The notes under the pieces: generated by a model
What the model saw: the letters and a program-made list of their open reading frames with translations, nothing else
Told to the model about the DNA's origin: nothing
Databases searched by the model: none
Virus record (IMG/VR): IMGVR_UViG_3300044535_000550
Span: 1-29,895 of that record
DNA from: a virus
Reading direction: 5' to 3' (one strand)
DNA: 29,895 nucleotides
Position numbers and translations under genes: made by a program
Shown: piece by piece, positions 1,319 to 23,061 of the stretch
Layout of the letters: each line of letters opens with the position of its first letter
How positions within the stretch are numbered: the stretch's first letter is position 1

Positions 1319-1861
1319 ATGAGCAATAACTTTGATTTAAGAAAATTCTTAACAGAAAATAAACTAACTTCCGTTGCGAGAACAATAAATGAAGCAGCAG
1401 AACTAAGCCCAATTGAACAAGAATTAGTAGATGCTGTAATGGGCAATGTTAACGAAGCTATTGATTTAAGTAAGATACTTAACAAAGTTAAATTATTAGC
1501 TAATAAAGGACTACTTACAGTAGCTATGGCAAGTGCTATTTTAGCTTCTTGCGGTTCCGCTGGCTCATCAGATGAAATTTTTAAACGTGAACTTGACAAT
1601 CTTAAAAAAGTAGATAGTATAGAACACGTACAAAAGACAAGAATCGATAGCATATCAAACGATGTTAAATCAAATCCAACTACAGCAACTATTAAAGAAT
1701 CAGAAGGATATGTTGAAGTAATGGGAGATGATTTTGACGAAGCAGTAGATCAAATCGTTTTTGCTTGGGAGCAATGGAAAAACGGACCAGCAACAGAGCC
1801 GGAAGATATTGAGCCAGCAAGAGAAGACGTAGTAAGTTACATTAGATCTCTACTTAAATAA
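1319..1861 (+). CDS. Probable capsid-cargo protein with an internal lipoprotein-like segment
   Basis: This 180-residue protein has no recognised family. Its N-terminus contains three possible gp21-type sites: FLTE|N after residue 13, INE|A after 25 and VNE|A after 46. The stretch after E46 has the form of a bacterial lipoprotein signal: a lysine-containing n-region (residues 47-63), a hydrophobic core GLLTVAMASAIL (64-75) and a lipobox-like LASC with C78, followed by GSAGSSDE. The rest is acidic and helical. A lipobox 78 residues from the start is unusual and could not act as a signal unless the front is removed, which prohead processing could do. A late-type box is 18 bases upstream and a terminator lies downstream at 1890. 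Confidence 0.65.
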   Translation: MSNNFDLRKFLTENKLTSVARTINEAAELSPIEQELVDAVMGNVNEAIDLSKILNKVKLLANKGLLTVAMASAILASCGSAGSSDEIFKRELDNLKKVDSIEHVQKTRIDSISNDVKSNPTTATIKESEGYVEVMGDDFDEAVDQIVFAWEQWKNGPATEPEDIEPAREDVVSYIRSLLK

Positions 1862-3677: not shown

Positions 3678-4616
3678 ATGAAACTCTCACAACTAATATT
3701 AGAAGCTAAAGCCAAGCCAAAAGCCGTTATTATGGCTGGAGGTGCTGGTGCAGGTAAAAGTTACCTTCTTAATCAATTAGATTTAGGAGGGTTAACTATT
3801 TACAACCCAGATAAATACGTAGAAGATAAAGAACATCCATACTACGGCAATCTTTCAGCAGCAGCTAATCAAGTAAACCAAGACGTAGAAGATGCGTCGC
3901 AAAATAAAGAAAACTTTATATGGGATACTACAGCTTCTAATTCTAAGAAAGTACAAGACCTTATAGTTAAAGGCTATGAAGTTTTTATGGTAATGGTGTA
4001 TACGCACCCTTTAATTTCCTTTATTTCAAATTTTGAAAGAGAAAGACAGATACCAAAGACAGCTGTTTTTTCAACTTGGAGAGATGTATATCAACAAATT
4101 GGCTATTATAAAGGATTATTAGGAGATAACTTTATGTTATTTGCTAACGATAGAGGCGGTAAATACGATAAAGAGATAAAAGAATTTAACGTAGCAGCAA
4201 GAAATGGATCTAATGGAATTTCAGACTACTTAGCAAAGTATATGGAAGATCACGGGGGTGCTGAAGGATTTATTTCTACTTTTAGAAAGCCATATGATAT
4301 CGAAGATAAAAATGCAGCCGATGCTTATAGAAAAGAAACAGCTAATATAGACTATAATAGAGAAGACGAGTCTATGGATAAGCAGTTAAAGAAGTACTGG
4401 ATGGGCTTTTATGAGAAGAATGGAACAGGACCTGGAGATGATAAGATGAAAAAGAAGGTTAGTTCTATTACCAGTGTTCGTCAAAAAGCTGATGAAAAAA
4501 ATAAAGAAGTATTAGATAATATTGCCGATATGATCCATAACGCTAAGTTTACAGAACAATTAAAAGGTTCTACAGTAGCAGAAATTGATCAAAGAGTACA
4601 AAACTTTTTAGCATAA
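3678..4616 (+). CDS. Zeta-toxin-like P-loop kinase with capsid-targeting-type leader
   Basis: This 312-residue protein starts MKLSQLILE|A, the shared leader. A P-loop follows at once (VIMAGGAGAGKSYL, about residues 18-31), then NPDKYVED, FIWDTTASN and VMVYTHPL. This order is typical of zeta-toxin/polynucleotide-kinase-like P-loop kinases (known zeta toxins phosphorylate UDP-sugars; others act on nucleic acid ends). The substrate cannot be read from sequence. The C-terminal third is charged and helical and has no assignment. Its stop overlaps the next ATG (TAATG), coupling it to the nucleotidyltransferase. If the leader is functional, the kinase would be packaged in the head and delivered to the host with the DNA. 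Confidence 0.75.
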   Translation: MKLSQLILEAKAKPKAVIMAGGAGAGKSYLLNQLDLGGLTIYNPDKYVEDKEHPYYGNLSAAANQVNQDVEDASQNKENFIWDTTASNSKKVQDLIVKGYEVFMVMVYTHPLISFISNFERERQIPKTAVFSTWRDVYQQIGYYKGLLGDNFMLFANDRGGKYDKEIKEFNVAARNGSNGISDYLAKYMEDHGGAEGFISTFRKPYDIEDKNAADAYRKETANIDYNREDESMDKQLKKYWMGFYEKNGTGPGDDKMKKKVSSITSVRQKADEKNKEVLDNIADMIHNAKFTEQLKGSTVAEIDQRVQNFLA

Positions 4617-5845
4617 TGGCAGTAATATTATACCCAGGAGCATTCAAACCACCACATAGAGGTCATTTTGATTTAGTAAAATCTTTAATAAACGGGACAG
4701 CTCAAGCAAGAACATATGACTTAGAGTCAAGTGAAGATGCAGCAGATCAGTTACTTAAAGGAAAAGCTGAAAAGATAGAAAAGATTGACAGGGTAATGAT
4801 TTATATCGGTAGTAGTGTTCGTAACGGTATAGATAGAGAAGATTCTAAAGCAGTATGGGATATCTATAAAAAATACTTACCTGGAAATGTAGAGGTAATT
4901 GTAGCAGATGCCAATCCAATGCTTGTAGCTAGAAGTCATGCTAAGAATAGACCTACTGAGAAGTTTTACGCTGTAACAGGAGTTAGATCTTCAGAGGATT
5001 ACGTAGACTTAAGAAGAGTAAGTGCATTCAAAGGGTTAGATAATGTACAGGGATTAGCAGTAAGCGGTGGAGAAAATTCAAACGTAAGAGCAACTGGTTT
5101 TAGAGACGCAATTTTAAACGGAAGTCTCGACGATGTCTTAGATTTCTTTCCAAAAGAATTATCAAGACAAGAGATCTTAAAAATAGTAGAAATGTTAAAA
5201 CAAGGAATTATAGCTGAAATGATAGCTGAAAAGATAGAGGATATATACTCAGGTTGGTTTGATGAAGATACAATTACAGAAAACTCATCCGGTATACCTT
5301 TACAAAACACAGCTACAGTCACTTCTCAAGATCGAGATTATTTAGGAGATCAACTAAAAGCTATACAAGGTATTATAGATGATAGATTTGAAGCTGAATT
5401 AAACGGTGATCGAATTGTAGTAAAATTAAAAGGAGAGAGCCCTTATAATACATCTGATATGCCTGCGAATTACGACTACGGTGAACATTTTGCAGGACTT
5501 TTAGAGTATATGATAAGAGAGGGTATGCAAGTAGAACCTCTACCGGAAGTCAAAATACGTAGAGATTTAGCTGAAGCAGAAAACTTTTTTGGTAAGACAG
5601 CTTACTACAATCCTGCAGATAAAGAAATTGTACTATATGTAGCAGGTAGACATCCTAAAGATGTTACAAGATCTTTTTCTCATGAAATGGTACACCACAT
5701 GCAAAATCTACAAGGTAGATTAGGTAACAGAGGTACAACAGATACAAACGCAGATAAAGAATTAGCAGCATTAGAAGAAGAAGCATACCTAAAAGGTAAT
5801 ATGGTATTTAGAAACTGGGAAGATTCCCAAAAAAATAAAAAATAA
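4616..5845 (+). CDS. Nucleotidyltransferase fused to a zincin metalloprotease-like domain
   Basis: This 409-residue protein has two domains. Residues 1-185 form a cytidylyl/adenylyltransferase-type domain: GAFKPPHRGHF has the HxGH motif (H14, H17), and ENSNVRATGFRDAILNG matches the C-terminal (S/T)-x-x-R signature of such enzymes, followed by DDVLDFFP. Residues 310-409 contain HEMVHH (HExxH, H356/E357/H360) with candidate third zinc ligands at E387-E389, as in gluzincin-type metallopeptidases. A helical linker includes two IAE sites (after E201 and E205) that a gp21-type protease could cut, separating the halves. The start is fixed by the TAATG overlap. Substrates are unknown; NMN, phosphate esters or sugars are all possible for the first domain. 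Confidence 0.75.
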   Translation: MAVILYPGAFKPPHRGHFDLVKSLINGTAQARTYDLESSEDAADQLLKGKAEKIEKIDRVMIYIGSSVRNGIDREDSKAVWDIYKKYLPGNVEVIVADANPMLVARSHAKNRPTEKFYAVTGVRSSEDYVDLRRVSAFKGLDNVQGLAVSGGENSNVRATGFRDAILNGSLDDVLDFFPKELSRQEILKIVEMLKQGIIAEMIAEKIEDIYSGWFDEDTITENSSGIPLQNTATVTSQDRDYLGDQLKAIQGIIDDRFEAELNGDRIVVKLKGESPYNTSDMPANYDYGEHFAGLLEYMIREGMQVEPLPEVKIRRDLAEAENFFGKTAYYNPADKEIVLYVAGRHPKDVTRSFSHEMVHHMQNLQGRLGNRGTTDTNADKELAALEEEAYLKGNMVFRNWEDSQKNKK

Positions 5846-6985: not shown

Positions 6986-7336
6986 ATGGCAGTAGAGAAA
7001 ACAGCATTAGACGAGATATTATCAGAACTTAAGCATATAAAAACACATATGCCTAATGGTGAGTTGAAGATAATGTTGGAGGATATGAAAGACGTGAAAG
7101 ATGATCTATCTGAACTGAAATATATGCTTCTAAATCCTGAAGATGGACTTGTGGTTAAGACAAATAAAAACACAGAGTTCCGACTAACTCTTCAATCTAA
7201 TGAAAAAGAATATCAAAGAAATATGCAAGAATTAGAAGAGTTAAAAAAATGGAAAAACGGAGTAACAAAAGCTCTTTGGATTATATTTTCAGCACTAGCT
7301 GCATTAGTATTTGAAATGCTACAAAGCCACAAGTAA
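6986..7336 (+). CDS. Coiled-coil protein with one C-terminal membrane segment
   Basis: This 116-residue protein has charged heptad-like helices through residues 5-90, then one hydrophobic segment (about 94-111, ALWIIFSALAALVFEML) and a short polar tail. This architecture is shared with XhlA-type phage membrane proteins that help holins in lysis, and with other tail-anchored phage proteins. No enzymatic motif is seen and no lysin gene lies nearby, so a lysis role is only one option. It has no capsid-targeting leader. Its end precedes the next start (7338) by one base. Confidence 0.65.
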   Translation: MAVEKTALDEILSELKHIKTHMPNGELKIMLEDMKDVKDDLSELKYMLLNPEDGLVVKTNKNTEFRLTLQSNEKEYQRNMQELEELKKWKNGVTKALWIIFSALAALVFEMLQSHK

Positions 7337-7337
7337 T

Positions 7338-7895
7338 ATGAAACTGATTGACATTATACTCGAAGTAAAAGATATACAGTACACAAAACCTAATTTCGCT
7401 AACGAATGGGAAGAAGCTCTTAGATATCCTGAATTTGAAGATATGGGAAAAGAAGAGTGGATAAAAATAGCCAATCAAGGCAAACCAGAATCGTTTTCAA
7501 AAATTAGAAAAGTCCTAGGTAACGTAGACTTAAGATTCGACAGACTACGAAAAGCAAAAAGAGAAAGATTTCATCAAGCATTTGAAAAGGGAGTTATAGA
7601 AATGTCTATCGCTGTTAAATTTAGCGATACAGATTATGACCTAGTAGCAGGTAATACAAGATTAGCCGGACTTGTAAAAAACGGAGTTGATCCTAAAATA
7701 TGGATTGTAGACATCTCACACCTAATGGAGATGTTAATGGAAGGAATAGACGATCCAGTTAAACCAGGTATTCTTAAAAAAAGATTAGGTTCTTTATCTT
7801 GTTCTAAAGTTAGAGCTGAAAAAGCAAAGCTAGAAGATAAAGGAACCCATTTTGCAAAAGCACTTCAGAGATACTTAAACTACCATTGTAAATGA
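7338..7895 (+). CDS. ParB-like (Srx-fold) protein with capsid-targeting-type leader
   Basis: I start this at ATG 7338 because it gives MKLIDIILE|V, the shared leader; an in-frame ATG at 7311 lies inside the previous gene. The 185-residue protein contains DYDLVAGNTRLAGLVKNG followed by a strand (KIWIVDI), which matches the box of ParB/sulfiredoxin-like domains (GxxR in a nucleotide-binding loop). Such domains in known proteins act in DNA binding, CTP hydrolysis or nuclease reactions; which applies here is unknown. A basic Cys-containing tail (SLSCSKVRAEKAK and a terminal NYHCK) recalls small C-terminal modules of other phage proteins. It overlaps the next gene by 4 bases. Confidence 0.65.
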   Translation: MKLIDIILEVKDIQYTKPNFANEWEEALRYPEFEDMGKEEWIKIANQGKPESFSKIRKVLGNVDLRFDRLRKAKRERFHQAFEKGVIEMSIAVKFSDTDYDLVAGNTRLAGLVKNGVDPKIWIVDISHLMEMLMEGIDDPVKPGILKKRLGSLSCSKVRAEKAKLEDKGTHFAKALQRYLNYHCK

Positions 7896-8312: not shown

Positions 8313-10814
8313 ATGAAAGAACCTATAAAGATGTTAACTTTTCAAGAAGTAAAAGTACGATTAGAAAAAGTACAACAAGCTTTAGAAGCTTTACAGGTTC
8401 AGGAAAAGAAACAGGCATCAACACCTCAGTACGAAAAGCAAAAAGCACAACTCATTTCTTTAAGAGAAACTTTAGAAAACAAATTAAACATACTTACAGA
8501 AATGGATAAAGGTGTAATACATACTGACGATGAAAATAAAGCTAAGGAATTAGCTGAAAAAGGCGTTCAAGTACAACTTCATAAAAAAGGAGAGCCTCTT
8601 GATACTAAAAAAATTAAAGAAGCAGAAGAAGGGCTTGAATTTGATTTAGAACAAACAAAAGCAATCTCAAAAGATGTAGCTAAAGCAGTAGCAATGGCGT
8701 TAAAAGAAGACGGTCTTGAAATTGCATCTGGAAAGATCTTAAGATTAGAGCCAATGGCTTTCGATGTTTACTTCGAATACAAAGACGGAAAAGAAGATGA
8801 ATTCTCTTTCCATGTAGATCAAGATAGAAATATTGTACTATCAGACTTTACTTTTACTGAGAAAATCGGACAAGTAGGTATGAAAGGAGCTGGAGAGCCA
8901 TTTGTAAATAAAGATGTTTTAAAAGCAAACATATTAAAAGTATGGGCTAAGTTAGACGGAAATATGCAAGAAGCAGAAGGCGGTCAAGATGATTTGATGG
9001 CTCAATTAGAACAAGCTTTGAAATCTCACGACTGGTACTATATGATGTCAGATGACCATAGATGGTATAAACGCGGTAGCGAACAAGCTCAAAACATACA
9101 CAACTTAATAACTAAGTTAAAAGATGCCGGACAGGGAGAACAAGCAGAAGCTTTGTATAAATCATATCACGAAAAAAATAGAATAAGTGAATCTCCAACG
9201 AATGAAGCATCAGTAGGAAGCATACAGAAAAAACATGGAGAGATTGTCGCTAAGATGAAAGCTCTTGCAGCTAAGTACAAAGGTGGTGATCAATCTGTAG
9301 TACCTGAGTTAAAGGCTTTAACAGCAGAAAAGAAAAAATTAGAAGCTGAGTTAGACGCAGCTGTTGCCGGAACAGGAGCAGATCAGGAATTAGATACTAG
9401 TGTAAATGAATACGAACACCACTACAGAAAGGTAGGAGGAGAATGTCGTAAGTATAACGACGAAGGAGATTACACAGTTGTTAGTATGCACTACTGCCAA
9501 TACAATGAGGGTAAGGATTACGATAAAGACGGAAAGATAGAAAAGCCTGAACAAGAATACAAAGGCGTAAAAGATAAGGCTATTAAGAAAGCTACTGGAA
9601 AAACAGAAGCAGCTAAAGCTAAAAAAGATTTTGATAAAGATGGTGATGTTGAATCACCAGAAGCTGAATATAAAGGAGTAAAAGATAAAGCTATTAAGAA
9701 AGCTGTATTAAAAGAAGACTGGGGTAGTTCAGATCAAGGAGCAATGAATAGAAGTATTCATAAGGACTTAGGAGAACCAGAAAATATGCCAATGCCTTTT
9801 GATAGTGCATTTGAATCAGCAGTAGAAGAAGCAGTTGATTTTTATTGGGACGAGTGGGAAGAATATCAAACAGATAGAGAGGGTTTAATTGACCATGCTA
9901 AAAGAGCTTATTATAGAGCATACTTCCCGGAGAAATTTGCAGGATTCCAAAAGATGTTTAGCGAAGGTGCTCCAGAATCTGTTGCAGACTTAGAGACAAT
10001 AGCTAACGATACTGCAAAGATGCCAGCAGAAAGAGATGCAGCTAGAAATAAGATGTACGCTATGAAGAAAGCTCAAGCCGGTACAAAACTAGCTGAAGCA
10101 CCAGAAGGTACATATTATATTAAAGTATCTATTAGAGATGCAAAAAGAGCGTTAGAAATTATCCACGATAACCCAGCTTACAGAAAAGCTGTAGAGATGG
10201 ATGGATCAGATGCATACTACCTTACAAATCCAGAACTTGCTTATGATTTACAAATGGATTTTGGTACTCAAAATATTGAGGTAGTTGACACTAATGTTGA
10301 TATGGATGAAGCTAAGCATGAAACTGAATTAGTACAAGATCCAAAAACTAAAGAGTTTACTCGTAAGATGAAAATGACACCTAAAGATATGGAAACTATC
10401 GATAAGGTTCAAAATATGATGGCTAAAGAAAAGAGCTTGAAAAAAGAAGAAGACGGTAATGATACTGCAGTTGACATCACAGGTAAAGCATACAGTATTG
10501 GAGATATTATAGAATTTAGAGGACATAAATTTGAATGTCAAATAGGAAATAGAGGTATAGTAGTTCTACAGCATGTAGATGATCAATTAAATCCATTACC
10601 TGAATTCTACGAAGGTGGAACACCTCAGTTTACTGCAATCTTAAAAAATGCTAAAATTGTAAGTAGCGGAAAAGGGATATCAGAAGGAGGAGTTAATCCT
10701 GAAGGAGATGCAATGGTATTAAACTTCTTAAAGAAGCTATCTAAGATTTGGGATATACCAATGCAACACGCAGTTAACTTCGTAAATGCTTCTATCAAGC
10801 GCCAAGGATATTAA
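8313..10814 (+). CDS. Large multidomain probable head/cargo protein with two EF-hand loops
   Basis: This 833-residue protein has no named family. In order: an N-terminal coiled coil (residues 7-60), a beta-containing domain (about 110-215), a second coiled coil (about 300-350), a motif GGECRKYNDEGDYTVVSMHY followed by Cys, two EF-hand calcium loops starting at D402 and D439, a domain IKVSIRDAKRALEII (about 600-660), an SH3-like segment SIGDIIEFRGHKFEC, and a conserved-looking C-terminus. Candidate gp21-type cut sites lie between domains: ISE|S (293), TNE|A (298), LAE|A (595) and ISE|G (791). It may therefore be a precursor processed in the prohead. AGGA sits just upstream of the ATG; a second ATG at 8331 is possible. 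Confidence 0.7.
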   Translation: MKEPIKMLTFQEVKVRLEKVQQALEALQVQEKKQASTPQYEKQKAQLISLRETLENKLNILTEMDKGVIHTDDENKAKELAEKGVQVQLHKKGEPLDTKKIKEAEEGLEFDLEQTKAISKDVAKAVAMALKEDGLEIASGKILRLEPMAFDVYFEYKDGKEDEFSFHVDQDRNIVLSDFTFTEKIGQVGMKGAGEPFVNKDVLKANILKVWAKLDGNMQEAEGGQDDLMAQLEQALKSHDWYYMMSDDHRWYKRGSEQAQNIHNLITKLKDAGQGEQAEALYKSYHEKNRISESPTNEASVGSIQKKHGEIVAKMKALAAKYKGGDQSVVPELKALTAEKKKLEAELDAAVAGTGADQELDTSVNEYEHHYRKVGGECRKYNDEGDYTVVSMHYCQYNEGKDYDKDGKIEKPEQEYKGVKDKAIKKATGKTEAAKAKKDFDKDGDVESPEAEYKGVKDKAIKKAVLKEDWGSSDQGAMNRSIHKDLGEPENMPMPFDSAFESAVEEAVDFYWDEWEEYQTDREGLIDHAKRAYYRAYFPEKFAGFQKMFSEGAPESVADLETIANDTAKMPAERDAARNKMYAMKKAQAGTKLAEAPEGTYYIKVSIRDAKRALEIIHDNPAYRKAVEMDGSDAYYLTNPELAYDLQMDFGTQNIEVVDTNVDMDEAKHETELVQDPKTKEFTRKMKMTPKDMETIDKVQNMMAKEKSLKKEEDGNDTAVDITGKAYSIGDIIEFRGHKFECQIGNRGIVVLQHVDDQLNPLPEFYEGGTPQFTAILKNAKIVSSGKGISEGGVNPEGDAMVLNFLKKLSKIWDIPMQHAVNFVNASIKRQGY
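9516..9704 (+). repeat. Two tandem EF-hand/helix units, period 111 bases
   Basis: Unit 1 (9516-9593) and unit 2 (9627-9704) encode DYDKDGKIEKPE and DFDKDGDVESPE, each a 12-residue EF-hand loop with acidic residues at positions 1, 3, 5 and 12 and Gly at 6. Each is followed by the identical helix EYKGVKDKAIKKA. The 39-base helix segments (9555-9593 and 9666-9704) differ at only 3 positions, which points to a recent or gene-converted duplication. Confidence 0.85.
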
Positions 10815-17133: not shown

Positions 17134-17988
17134 ATGAAAGTAAAACATTCAAAGTATAAAAACACGGGGTTGATATTCGAATTGCTTGTTAAGCAAATCG
17201 CATCAGATACTCTATCTAAAAAAGATTCTCCAGCAGTTAGTATCTTAAAAAAATTCTATGCAGGAAAGTCTTCTTTAGCTAAAGAGTATAAACTCTATGA
17301 ATTTATTTCAAAAAACAATAATGTAACTCCTCTAAGAGCAGAAGCAATATTATCAACAATAACAGAAATCTCTCGCAAGTTAGATCAAGCTGCTATTAAG
17401 AAACAAAAGTACGAGTTAATTGCAGAAATAAAAAACCACTACAGTGTAGATGAGTTCTTTGCAATTCAGGTAAGAGACTACAAAGCATTAGCCGCTTTAT
17501 ACTGTTTATTAGAAACACAAAATAACGCAGAGAATGTTGATCCTAGTTCTTTAATTGAAAATAAAACAACAATTTTAGAACACTTAACATCAAAAATACA
17601 AAACGAAGAAGATGTAAAAGATACTTTAATCGAAGAGTATTCAAAATACGATAAAGATTTAAGATTACTTACATTTAAAATCTTGTTAGAGAAGTTTAAC
17701 GACAACTACAAAGATTTACTTCCGGAACAAAAAAATATTTTAAAAGAGTTTATAACTTCTGTAAACTCAACTACCCGTCTTAGAACTATCGTAAATGAGG
17801 AATTAGAAAAGATAGCAAAGAGAGTAGAAGAAATGTCTCAGAAGGTATCTGATCAGGTTATTAAGATTAAACTAGAAGAGGTAAGGAAAGCTATTAAACC
17901 TTTGACTAATAAGGAGAAAATAGGGGATACACATCTAGTTAACCTTATGCAGTACTATGAATTAGTACATGAACTTGAGACGATATGA
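17134..17988 (+). CDS. Helical protein at the prohead-core (gp67/gp68) position
   Basis: This 284-residue, almost entirely helical protein starts MKVKHSKYKNTGLIFELLVK and has no catalytic motif. It sits between portal and protease, where T4 has its core genes 67 and 68, so a role in the prohead core or at the portal is plausible from position alone. Several (I/L)-x-E triplets are present, as would be expected in a protein degraded by the protease, but such triplets are common in helical acidic sequence. It overlaps the next gene by 4 bases (ATGA). Confidence 0.7.
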   Translation: MKVKHSKYKNTGLIFELLVKQIASDTLSKKDSPAVSILKKFYAGKSSLAKEYKLYEFISKNNNVTPLRAEAILSTITEISRKLDQAAIKKQKYELIAEIKNHYSVDEFFAIQVRDYKALAALYCLLETQNNAENVDPSSLIENKTTILEHLTSKIQNEEDVKDTLIEEYSKYDKDLRLLTFKILLEKFNDNYKDLLPEQKNILKEFITSVNSTTRLRTIVNEELEKIAKRVEEMSQKVSDQVIKIKLEEVRKAIKPLTNKEKIGDTHLVNLMQYYELVHELETI

Positions 17989-18239
17989 AACTAAGTGAAT
18001 TGAGAAAATTAGTACAAGAAGTACTTCAAGAAGCTAACGTAACTAACGTTGGTGGTTCTACTTATACTCCCGGAGCGAATGATGCATTTGCAACACGATT
18101 TGCTTTTGGAGGAAAAAAAGACAATAAAGCAACGAATTATGCGAAGAAGCTAGGCTTTAAAAAAGTAAGCCGCCCAAGCAGACCTTCAAATACAAAATTA
18201 ATAGACTATCTAAATGAAAACGCTACAAGAAAAGTTTAA
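17985..18239 (+). CDS. Small protein with capsid-targeting-type leader
   Basis: This 84-residue protein begins MKLSELRKLVQEVLQE|A, a longer version of the shared leader. After the possible cut at residue 16 it is basic and Gly/Ser/Asn-rich (GGSTYTPGANDAFATRFAFG, then FKKVSRPSRPSN), which could suit a DNA-binding internal head protein. Its last 26 bases overlap the start of the next gene in another frame. No family recognised. Confidence 0.65.
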   Translation: MKLSELRKLVQEVLQEANVTNVGGSTYTPGANDAFATRFAFGGKKDNKATNYAKKLGFKKVSRPSRPSNTKLIDYLNENATRKV

Positions 18240-19097: not shown

Positions 19098-19673
19098 ATG
19101 GCATTATTAGTAGAAGTACAAACCTTTAGACCTATTCTTAGAGAATCTAAGGAAAGACCTGGAGTATTCGAAGTAGAAGGTATTATGCAACGTGCTGGAG
19201 CTAAAAACCAGAACGGACGTGTTTATGACAAACGAATACTTTTACGCGAAGTAGATAAATATGTAACCGAGTTTGTTAAGAACGGAAACGCCTACGGTGA
19301 ATTAGATCATCCAGAATCTGCTATAGTATCTTTAAAGAATGCATCTCATATCATAAAAGAATTATGGTGGAAAGGTGATGAACTAATGGGTAGAGTAGAA
19401 CTACTTAATACACCATCAGGAAACATTGTAAAAGAGATTATTAAAGCAGGACATACTATCGGTATTTCTTCTAGAGGTACAGGATCTGTACAGCAGACAA
19501 ACGAAGGTACTTTAGAAGTACAACCAGATTTTGAATTAGTTTGTTGGGATTTCGTATCTAATCCATCTACACATGGTGCATTTATGAATCCAATCTCATT
19601 AAACGAAAGTACACAAGCTGTTTCTAAGTTTAGTAAACTAGACAGTATTATAAACGACATATTAAGAGCGTAA
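19098..19673 (+). CDS. Prohead core protease (gp21-like, herpesvirus-assemblin fold)
   Basis: This 191-residue serine protease should cut scaffold, capsid and internal proteins during head maturation. VFEVEGIMQRAGAKNQNGRVY at the N-terminus is typical of T4-type prohead proteases. The catalytic His is in GELDHPESA (H71) and the Ser in TIGISSRGTGSV (S124 or S125); D151 in CWDFVSNP may complete the site. The C-terminal ISLNE|STQAV fits the L-x-E consensus at E170, a possible self-cleavage site that would remove 21 residues. T4 gp21 also processes itself. It ends with TAATG into the next gene. Confidence 0.93.
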   Translation: MALLVEVQTFRPILRESKERPGVFEVEGIMQRAGAKNQNGRVYDKRILLREVDKYVTEFVKNGNAYGELDHPESAIVSLKNASHIIKELWWKGDELMGRVELLNTPSGNIVKEIIKAGHTIGISSRGTGSVQQTNEGTLEVQPDFELVCWDFVSNPSTHGAFMNPISLNESTQAVSKFSKLDSIINDILRA

Positions 19674-20221
19674 TGAAGTTAGCTACAATTATACTAGAAG
19701 ACCAAAACAAAGTAGATCAACTAGCAGCAGCCTTAGGTGGTGAGTTTAAAACACTAGCTAAAGGTATTGACACAGAGTTTGATAAAGCTGATGACCCTAA
19801 AGAAGGGTTGATTACAACAGCAAGTCTTATAGTAGCATTACCAGCTATATTAGGATTAATTGCACGTCTAGGAAGAAACGCTTCTAAGTTAGTAAGACAG
19901 TATTTTGGAGCAAAACCAGAAGATCCTTCAGCAGCTGAAAAGTATTTCCAAGATATGGGTAAATTAGCTGATCAGTTACATCATTTATATGTTAGACCTA
20001 TTGAAGCAATTGTTCACAAGTTTGTTAAAGATCCTAAAAAGGCTCATAACATTTCGAATGCTATCTTTCACATAATAGTTGCAATCTTCTTAATCGCTTC
20101 AGGTGTTACAGCAGTAAAAGCATTACAAGCTAAGAATATTAGTTTAGCTAGTTTAGAAGGTGCATTAACCGCTGTAAAAGGTGGTGAAGTAAAAGAATAC
20201 TTAAGCAAGTTCTTTGCGTAA
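19673..20221 (+). CDS. Two-helix membrane protein with capsid-targeting-type leader
   Basis: This 182-residue protein starts MKLATIILE|D, one of the cleanest copies of the shared leader. Two long hydrophobic segments follow, at about 46-66 (GLITTASLIVALPAILGLIA) and 128-150 (ISNAIFHIIVAIFLIASGV), separated by an amphipathic helical region with His (LADQLHHLYVRPIEAIVHK). It begins at the last base of the protease stop and is the last gene before the scaffold unit. A membrane protein among head genes with a head-targeting leader is best explained as an ejected membrane-active protein; a holin-like role is the alternative. No family recognised. Confidence 0.7.
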   Translation: MKLATIILEDQNKVDQLAAALGGEFKTLAKGIDTEFDKADDPKEGLITTASLIVALPAILGLIARLGRNASKLVRQYFGAKPEDPSAAEKYFQDMGKLADQLHHLYVRPIEAIVHKFVKDPKKAHNISNAIFHIIVAIFLIASGVTAVKALQAKNISLASLEGALTAVKGGEVKEYLSKFFA

Positions 20222-21459: not shown

Positions 21460-23061
21460 ATGGAAATTAATTCATTATTGGAAAGCTCAAACACTTACAA
21501 AAGCCAAGCAGCTGATGCAGCTCGTTTAGCTGATAAGTGGAGCCAATCTGGCTTGTTAGAAGGCCTTTCTGGAGAGAAAGACAAGACTAACATGGCTATG
21601 ATCCTAGAAAACCAAGCTAAGCAAATCGTTGCTGAAGCTAACACAACTGGTACAGGTGGTACATTTACTGCTGGTGCTGGTGAACAATGGGCTGGTGTTG
21701 CTTTACCGTTAGTACGTAAAGTATTCGCTCAGATCTCTGCAAAAGACTTCTTATCAGTTCAACCAATGAACTTACCTTCAGGTCTTGTATTCTATTTAGA
21801 TTTCAAATACGGTACTGCTAAGTCTCCATTCGGTGACGGCGATAACATGTACGGTACTTTGGATACTTTAGATACTGATCCAACAGGTGGTCTTTACGGT
21901 GTAGGTCGTTTCTCTTACTCTTTGAACACAAAGACTCAAGAAGACGTAGCTTACGCAATCTCTGCTGCAACTTCAGCATCTATCGGATTTGAAAGCGGTG
22001 TTAACCCTAGCGATTATGTAGTAGTAACTGCAACTTTACCAGCTGCAACTAACTTCGACGCTAAAGGTGTTCGTGCTTTCGCTTTAGTATCTGCTTCTGT
22101 TAACTTAGACGCAAATACATTAAAAGCTTATACTTCTACTAACGGTACTTCAACTGTATCTTTCGTAGTATTAGGTTCAGCTATCACTAAAGCGGTTGCT
22201 GCTACAGGTTCTGCTGGTACATCTGGCTTAGACGTAGTTTACCATAAGCAACCAGTTGATAACGCACGTGGTGATTTCGAAGCTAACTCTTCAGCTGCTG
22301 TAGATACTTCTATCACAATCCCTGAAATCGACGTTCAATTACGTTCTGAAGCAGTTGTTGCTAAGACTCGTAAATTGAAAGCACAATGGACTCCAGAATT
22401 CGCTCAAGACTTAAATGCTTACCATAGCATTGACGCTGAAGCTGAATTGACTTCATTGTTGAGCGAATATATCTCTATGGAGATCGACTTAGAATTGATC
22501 GACATGTTGATTCAAGATGCTCGTACTACTGAAAAATGGTCTGTAGAAAACAACAAAATTTGGAATGGTTCAGCTTGGACTACTTCAACTTCTGACTTCT
22601 ACAACACACAAGGTCAGTGGTTCCAAACTTTAGGTACTAAAATCCAAAAAGTATCTAACAAAATTCACCAAAAGACATTACGTGGTGGTGCTAACTTCTT
22701 AGTATGTTCTCCTAACGTAGCAACTATCTTAGAATCTATTCCAGGATATGCTGCTGATACAAACGGCGACAAAATGGAGTTTGCAATGGGTGTTCAGAAA
22801 GTTGGTAACTTAAACAGCCGTTTCAAGGTTTACAAAAACCCTTACATGACTGAAAATACCATCTTAATGGGCTTCCGTGGTGGTCAATTCTTGGAGGCTG
22901 GTGCGGTTTACGCTCCTTACGTTCCATTGATGATGACTCCATTAGTGTACGATCCAGAAACATTTACTCCACGTAAAGGTTTGATGACTCGTTACGCTAA
23001 GAAAATGATCCGTCCAGAATTCTATGGTAAGATCTTCATCACAGATTTAGAGCAAATCTAA
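21460..23061 (+). CDS. Major capsid protein (gp23-like)
   Basis: This 533-residue HK97-fold shell protein resembles T4 gp23 in the segments VQPMNLPSGLVFYLDFKYG, KTRKLKAQWTPEFAQDLNAYHSIDAE (matched in T4 by the RQLKAAYSIELAQDL region), FRGGQFLEAGAVYAPYVPL and GLMTRYAKK. The N-terminal 59 residues (with ILE at 48-50 and IVAE|A at 56-59) are the likely propeptide removed by the protease, comparable to the 65 residues cut from T4 gp23. All 14 arginine codons are CGT, unlike the AGA-rich neighbours, which fits very high expression. The upstream leader is unstructured and A-rich with no Shine-Dalgarno sequence. Confidence 0.96.
   Translation: MEINSLLESSNTYKSQAADAARLADKWSQSGLLEGLSGEKDKTNMAMILENQAKQIVAEANTTGTGGTFTAGAGEQWAGVALPLVRKVFAQISAKDFLSVQPMNLPSGLVFYLDFKYGTAKSPFGDGDNMYGTLDTLDTDPTGGLYGVGRFSYSLNTKTQEDVAYAISAATSASIGFESGVNPSDYVVVTATLPAATNFDAKGVRAFALVSASVNLDANTLKAYTSTNGTSTVSFVVLGSAITKAVAATGSAGTSGLDVVYHKQPVDNARGDFEANSSAAVDTSITIPEIDVQLRSEAVVAKTRKLKAQWTPEFAQDLNAYHSIDAEAELTSLLSEYISMEIDLELIDMLIQDARTTEKWSVENNKIWNGSAWTTSTSDFYNTQGQWFQTLGTKIQKVSNKIHQKTLRGGANFLVCSPNVATILESIPGYAADTNGDKMEFAMGVQKVGNLNSRFKVYKNPYMTENTILMGFRGGQFLEAGAVYAPYVPLMMTPLVYDPETFTPRKGLMTRYAKKMIRPEFYGKIFITDLEQI

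Follow-up and report, generated by a model that had tools for sequence, protein, structure and literature searches.

Introduction

The internal proteins of phage T4 are thought of as cytoplasmic effectors. IPI, IPII, IPIII and Alt each carry a capsid-targeting sequence (CTS), a leader of 10-20 residues that ends in L/I-x-E and is placed on otherwise unrelated bodies, and the gp21-family protease and the gp23-type capsid occur together in one phage. The cleavage motif of T4 gp21 is L/I-X-E, and ejection delivers the T4 internal proteins to the cytoplasm (PMC9026906). No export signal is reported in the reviews on them that were consulted. SPN3US gp245 and phiKZ gp175, from giant phages, are likewise ejected proteins whose long propeptides are removed by a gp21-related protease at several sites per protein, although the motif there is A-x-E; the mass-spectrometry paper on SPN3US makes no mention of signal peptides, lipoproteins or polyproteins.

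Bacterial lipoproteins, processed by Lgt and LspA, have a basic n-region, a hydrophobic core and a lipobox at the true N-terminus. Phage-encoded examples are the small superinfection-exclusion lipoproteins T5 Llp and TP-J34 Ltp, whose own genes are expressed in the infected or lysogenic cell and encode an N-terminal signal. A search of the open-access literature yielded no packaged phage protein with a protease-unmasked signal.

The open reading frame (ORF) described here resembles both groups. It has three traits of T4-type internal proteins: a shared leader, a gp21-type leader end and a gp21-family protease in the same phage. Unlike the T4 proteins, it has a second predicted site about 20 residues later that would uncover a Sec/lipoprotein signal. 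This signal, unlike that of bacterial lipoproteins, is not at the true N-terminus, and the predicted product, unlike Llp and Ltp, would arrive inside the virion.

The phage and the layout of the protein

The window, that is, the whole 29,895-base virus record that was analysed, is a fragment of a T4-like phage related to Flavobacterium phage immuto. Its genes code for a DnaG-type primase (PHROG 47), a gp23-type major capsid protein (PF07068, E=1.8e-82) and a gp21-family protease, and its terminase, portal protein and scaffold were assigned by synteny with annotated immuto. Virion proteomics of immuto or its relatives was looked for in the open-access literature and not found. The bounds that the first-pass annotation of this DNA gave for the ORF are exact; the ORF has an ATG start and 180 residues. 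The features are as follows (bars mark predicted cuts).

1319-1861, plus strand: whole ORF, 180 residues, ATG start, homologues found; putative capsid leader, spacer, export-signal module, C-terminal helical module
1319-1393, plus strand: putative capsid-targeting leader, residues 1-25, MSNNFDLRKFLTENKLTSVARTINE
1385-1396, plus strand: predicted prohead-protease site 1, INE25|A26; T4 motif L/I-X-E (PMC9026906)
1394-1456, plus strand: acidic spacer, residues 26-46, AAELSPIEQELVDAVMGNVNE; spacer and invariant closing Glu conserved in the homologue alignment
1448-1459, plus strand: predicted prohead-protease site 2, VNE46|A47; LEE|G or LDE|G in distant homologues
1457-1510, plus strand: signal n-region, residues 47-64, AIDLSKILNKVKLLANKG; K..A.KGL conserved in the homologue alignment
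1511-1552, plus strand: h-region and lipobox, residues 65-78, LLTVAMASAILASC; C78 at 1550-1552
1550-1699, plus strand: predicted mature lipopeptide, residues 78-127, 50 residues; helical in a low-confidence AF2 model
1691-1702, plus strand: predicted prohead-protease site 3, IKE127|S128; extra YEHHY..YNE module exactly there in L003-L007
1700-1858, plus strand: C-terminal module GYVEVMG...; also in immuto gene 201 and prohead-region proteins
19098-19673, plus strand: prohead protease, T4 gp21 family, Peptidase_S77 (Pfam PF03420, E=3.4e-36; PHROG 207)
19673-20221, plus strand: second candidate capsid-tagged membrane protein; MKLATIILE leader, two hydrophobic regions
21628-21639, plus strand: predicted maturation site of the major capsid protein, VAE59|A; VSE|A in immuto

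Searches of the 180-residue protein against Pfam and PHROGs gave no significant match, and its AlphaFold model (mean pLDDT 42) had no usable fold. Capture of the lipoprotein module from a host gene was considered and rejected, with no Pfam match and only a sub-threshold NCBIfam lipoprotein match (E=0.0057). The equivalent place in immuto, just before the DnaG primase, is occupied not by the lipobox protein but by gene 178 (L036:3762-4310), whose product is leader-tagged and carries a multi-pass, glycine-rich hydrophobic C-terminus after LNE|E.

A leader shared by unrelated phage proteins

Relatives of the leader (FDL(R/K)KFL.ENKL) were collected by scanning IMG/VR. A first scan returned 238, the best 80 of these, from 79 loci, were retained, and a second scan added more; once made non-redundant on the part behind the leader, the set comprised 78 different proteins. 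The leader is common to at least these 78 otherwise unrelated phage proteins. In 76 of the 78 the core F(D/N)L(R/K)KFLxENKL is followed by the motif [ILV]-x-E at a distance of no more than 14 residues, and in 69 at an offset of 8-9, compared with 20% in control windows of the same leader-bearing proteins (p about 6e-51). At this site the P3 residue is L in 50 proteins, I in 17 and V in 9, and this prevalence of L and I matches the published T4 gp21 motif L/I-X-E (PMC9026906). Residues 1-25 thus look like a T4-type CTS.

The leaders are exchangeable cassettes, as indicated by two proteins with closely related bodies and unrelated leaders: immuto_175 (leader MKKSELVKLIKEELN) and the L144/L201 protein (leader MDNFDLKKFLVENKLTANSRLLE) are 67% identical from about residue 18. 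The FDLKKFL-type leader is interchangeable with MKKSxL../MKLxxIILE leaders. Starts of the form MKLxxIILE(G/A/V/D) or similar, which resemble a second, T4-IP-type capsid leader, are found in the window at 850-1281, 3678-4616, 7311-7895, 17985-18239 and 19673-20221. Among the products of these genes are a kinase-like protein and a zeta-toxin-like ATPase (Pfam E=9e-11), which raises the possibility that enzymes are packaged as well.

A 418-residue ORF (L226:1975-3231) from a metagenome-assembled bacterial bin has a capsid leader at its start and another within the same chain, at ...NKMEKQFDLKKFLVENKLTSNSRSLNE; the terminase gene beside it appears to be interrupted by an intein. A search of bacterial genome contigs found one phage-like contig in a bacterial bin, with the leader present and no such export signal.

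Predicted protease sites and module borders

A gp21-type site, VNE46|A47, lies exactly at the boundary of the signal with 46 residues in front, as had been noted earlier, and it is accompanied in the same ORF by INE25|A26 and IKE127|S128. The scaffold protein of the window contains STIKE|S, identical to site 3, and the site of the major capsid protein stands in the context QIVAE|A, the same V-x-E|A form as site 2; VAE59|A, itself predicted, may serve as a guide to the protease consensus of this phage.

Related loci differ at these borders. L003-L007 contain extra modules, including YEHHY...YCRYNE placed exactly after TIKE|, and L005-L007 have an additional module directly after INE25|. The lipobox module is absent altogether from L008 and L009, and immuto gene 201, which adjoins the prohead protease, consists of the leader and the C-terminal module only. 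The C-terminal module is also found in prohead-region proteins of L010-L016 and L032. Such gains and losses at xxE borders form the pattern expected of a polyprotein cut into small packaged pieces, and we infer that E25, E46 and E127 are cut by the head protease, although these are short motifs that are common in Glu-rich proteins.

The 833-residue protein encoded at 8313-10814 of the window, with many xxE sites, looks like a packaged polyprotein. From residue 367 it contains the YEHHYRKVGGECRKYNDEGDYTVVSMHYCQYN module of L003-L009, bounded by SVNE| and E|G. An EF-hand/dockerin-like module, KGKDHDGDGD(V/I)DxDDYxAAKDKAIKKAMGK, recurs in many different proteins (L010, L011, L014, L015, L030, L032, L042 and others), often after xxE or xxEK.

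The lipobox signal behind E46

Residues 47-78 have the anatomy of a lipoprotein signal that the first-pass annotation described, AIDLSKILNKVKLLANKG-LLTVAMASAILA-SC: an n-region with four Lys and one Asp, a core (LLTVAMASAILA) without charge, and LASC78, encoded at 1541-1552 (TTAGCTTCTTGC). LASC78 conforms to the lipobox pattern [LVI][ASTVI][GAS]C, and the core in front of it is uncharged and preceded by a basic n-region, so the protein, once trimmed at E46, would resemble bacterial lipoproteins in all three parts. The n-region, with 18 residues, is long.

By a PROSITE-like rule, lipoproteins have C at position 15-35 and K/R in the first 7 residues. The full-length protein fails this rule, as does every product of an xxE cut upstream of the signal other than E46; the E46-cut product is the only form of the 180-residue protein that passes. 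For L003 and L007, with fronts of 52 or 95 residues, the rule passes only for the cut equivalent to E46. Counted from the xxE|A cut, the Cys is always residue 32, whereas the front varies from 46 to 95 residues between homologues. The idea that prohead cleavage unmasks the signal therefore stands in so far as removal of the front makes the signal canonical; the cleavage itself is predicted.

How often such a signal arises by chance was estimated from 733 non-redundant ORFs of at least 100 residues from related loci. An internal lipobox with a basic, hydrophobic lead-in occurred in three, one of which is the family of the present ORF; the other two have no capsid leader and look like spurious reading frames (strand unchecked). 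Between the window and L003/L005, the whole module shows 25 synonymous and 12 non-synonymous changes, and the hydrophobic core and C78 show no amino-acid change. The lipobox version is confined to close relatives, 88-98% identical over the module (window/L002, L003/L004 and L005-L007), and additional scans of viral contigs returned the same six contigs only.

A normal lipoprotein made from an internal start was rejected. M41 of the window is replaced by GTA in L003-L007, which have no ATG, GTG or TTG between residue 41 and M70 (window numbering), so that exposure of the signal there would require proteolysis, unless the signal is used internally.

The likeness to Bacteroidota lipoproteins that had been seen in SCGS followed by acidic residues is a loose one. 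The sequence is CGSAGSSDE, with D/E at +8/+9 (C being +1), whereas in the Bacteroidota surface-export signal (LES) the acidic residues occupy positions +2 to +6, as in SDDFE and QKDDE (PMC5080379). The comparison with surface lipoproteins is therefore weak, and surface export by LES was rejected, the acidic residues lying too far from C78 (PMC5080379). Since the mature lipopeptide would have no such motif, it is expected to face the periplasm.

Homologues without the cysteine

A profile search with the module found immuto gene 3 (E=3.4e-8) and L116, a 425-residue protein in a 114-kb contig (E=0.003); L119 and L120 were then recovered with the combined alignment. All four keep the leader, the acidic spacer, LEE|G or LDE|G, the basic n-region and the hydrophobic core. 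They end, not in a lipobox, but in PNLTQA|QK, PNIAQA|QK or PSLTQA|QK, an end that is signal-peptidase-I-like. In immuto gene 3 the predicted second site is E45|G46, with GVFSGVLNK directly behind it, and the predicted exported product would start at QKQDI. Thus the cysteine is kept in L002-L007 and is absent from these four. The first-pass annotation had counted homologues lacking the cysteine against its proposal, and to that extent it is contradicted; yet each of the four has a type-I-like signal in the corresponding position, again preceded by a conserved xxE|G. It follows that 'lipoprotein' is not a family trait. What the family has in common is a predicted export signal lying behind a putative head-protease site, in the order capsid tag, protease site and Sec signal, and the lipobox is one variant of this signal. 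A Sec-like signal behind xxE|A/G was found as type II in three distinct sequence lineages and as type I in four.

The payload of L116 has a sub-threshold Pfam match to OmpA (E=0.0097). When its model (mean pLDDT 40) was compared with the PDB by Foldseek, nearly all of the 50 matches listed were OmpA/OprF/Pal/YfiB/MotB periplasmic domains. The payload is therefore probably an OmpA-like periplasmic domain. Such a fold, carried behind both a capsid leader and a Sec-like signal, gives the best clue to what the family does.

Other leader-bearing membrane proteins

Sixteen non-redundant proteins combine the leader with a hydrophobic segment. In 10 of them a protease-like site lies no more than 20 residues upstream of that segment, where 2.7 were expected; because the 16 represent only about five families, this ratio overstates independence and is suggestive. 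An independent signal-like case is L105:4454 (ELNE|GWKQWALGAISALTVLGGGAALNN). In other phages, homologues of 19673-20221 carry the FDLKKFL leader, and xLDE| immediately precedes their hydrophobic segment. Multi-pass proteins like the product of 19673-20221 are candidates for packaged membrane proteins. Window 4616-5845 encodes an NMN-adenylyltransferase-like N-terminus fused to a region with HEMVHHMQNLQG (HExxH metallopeptidase-like); its homologue, immuto gene 182, is larger.

Proposed mechanism and alternative explanations

Our preferred reading, to which we give an even chance, is that the ORF encodes a T4-type internal (ejection) protein with a built-in, delayed signal and is exported after ejection. 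The leader would take the precursor into the prohead core and, in the producing cell, keep the signal off the N-terminus until the head is closed. The phage's gp21-family protease would cut after E25, E46 and E127, discarding leader and spacer, releasing the C-terminal module and leaving a packaged fragment, A47-E127, of 81 residues that starts with a complete lipoprotein signal. At infection the trimmed fragment would enter the cytoplasm with the DNA. A moderately hydrophobic Sec signal could allow post-translational export by SecA/SecYEG followed by LspA or signal peptidase I. The host Sec pathway would export the fragment, Lgt and LspA would lipidate it and cut at C78, and a 50-residue helical lipopeptide would reach the periplasm-facing membrane surface before any phage gene is expressed. 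In sister phages, soluble periplasmic payloads, one probably OmpA-like, would be set free by signal peptidase I. What the sequences themselves establish is a family of leaders, the motifs at the sites, the borders of the modules, the anatomy of the signal and homologues whose signals are type-I-like. Comparison lends good support to packaging and trimming, though both are deduced from these features; ejection to the cytoplasm, export, lipidation and purpose are inferred. As a guess, the phage may gain a function in the envelope at once, for instance superinfection exclusion, sealing of the envelope when ejection is over or takeover of the host.

An unlikely alternative, and the one that survives best, is that the protein is packaged and cut but that the hydrophobic segment is a helix inserting into the membrane during DNA ejection, as a conduit or for penetration, with no role for Sec, Lgt or LspA and with C78 incidental. 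Many capsid-tagged relatives do have multi-pass hydrophobic segments, and not cleavable signals, right behind xxE sites. The present segment, however, is a single short core with classical n-, h- and c-regions, its ends, LASC or (T/A)QA|Q, look like signal-peptidase sites and unlike the ends of transmembrane helices, and one payload probably has an OmpA-like, periplasmic fold.

The signal might instead act in the producing cell, the 46-residue front being a long n-region that serves late export or inner-membrane anchoring and perhaps tethers the prohead core, in which case little would hang on the xxE motifs. Long n-regions exist, and T4 proheads assemble on the inner membrane, so the signal could also act there; detachment of the T4 prohead from the membrane has been described (PMC9026906). 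We consider this quite unlikely. The leader is found on dozens of unrelated proteins, most without a hydrophobic segment, and ends in a fixed protease-like site; front length ranges widely while the position of Cys after xxE|A is constant; and the occurrence of the C-terminal module in prohead-region proteins makes export of the whole protein unlikely. Coincidence, in which a scaffold-like internal protein has a hydrophobic patch, a stray cysteine and no export function, is very improbable: lipobox sequences are short and the lipobox form is limited to close relatives, but the one non-spurious internal lipobox among the 733 ORFs lies behind a capsid leader, in diverged homologues the matching position is still taken by a type-I-like signal, and the hydrophobic core is unchanged between the window and L003/L005.

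Significance

Extended from this ORF to its relatives, delayed export after ejection suggests a virion-borne route, which we advance tentatively, as somewhat less than evenly probable: Bacteroidota T4-like phages would package small head-tagged proteins cut from modular polyproteins, the head protease would uncover a Sec signal of SPase I or II type, and the host Sec system would export the products before phage expression. With the leader motif, candidates for packaged proteins can be listed simply from sequence across a large group of uncultured phages; immuto, which grows on Flavobacterium, is an isolated relative open to experiment. If the proposal is true, these phages can place periplasmic proteins and lipoproteins in the host before transcribing a gene. 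Superinfection exclusion or repair of the envelope could then obviously be achieved at once, and nature would offer an example of a signal unmasked under the control of a protease.
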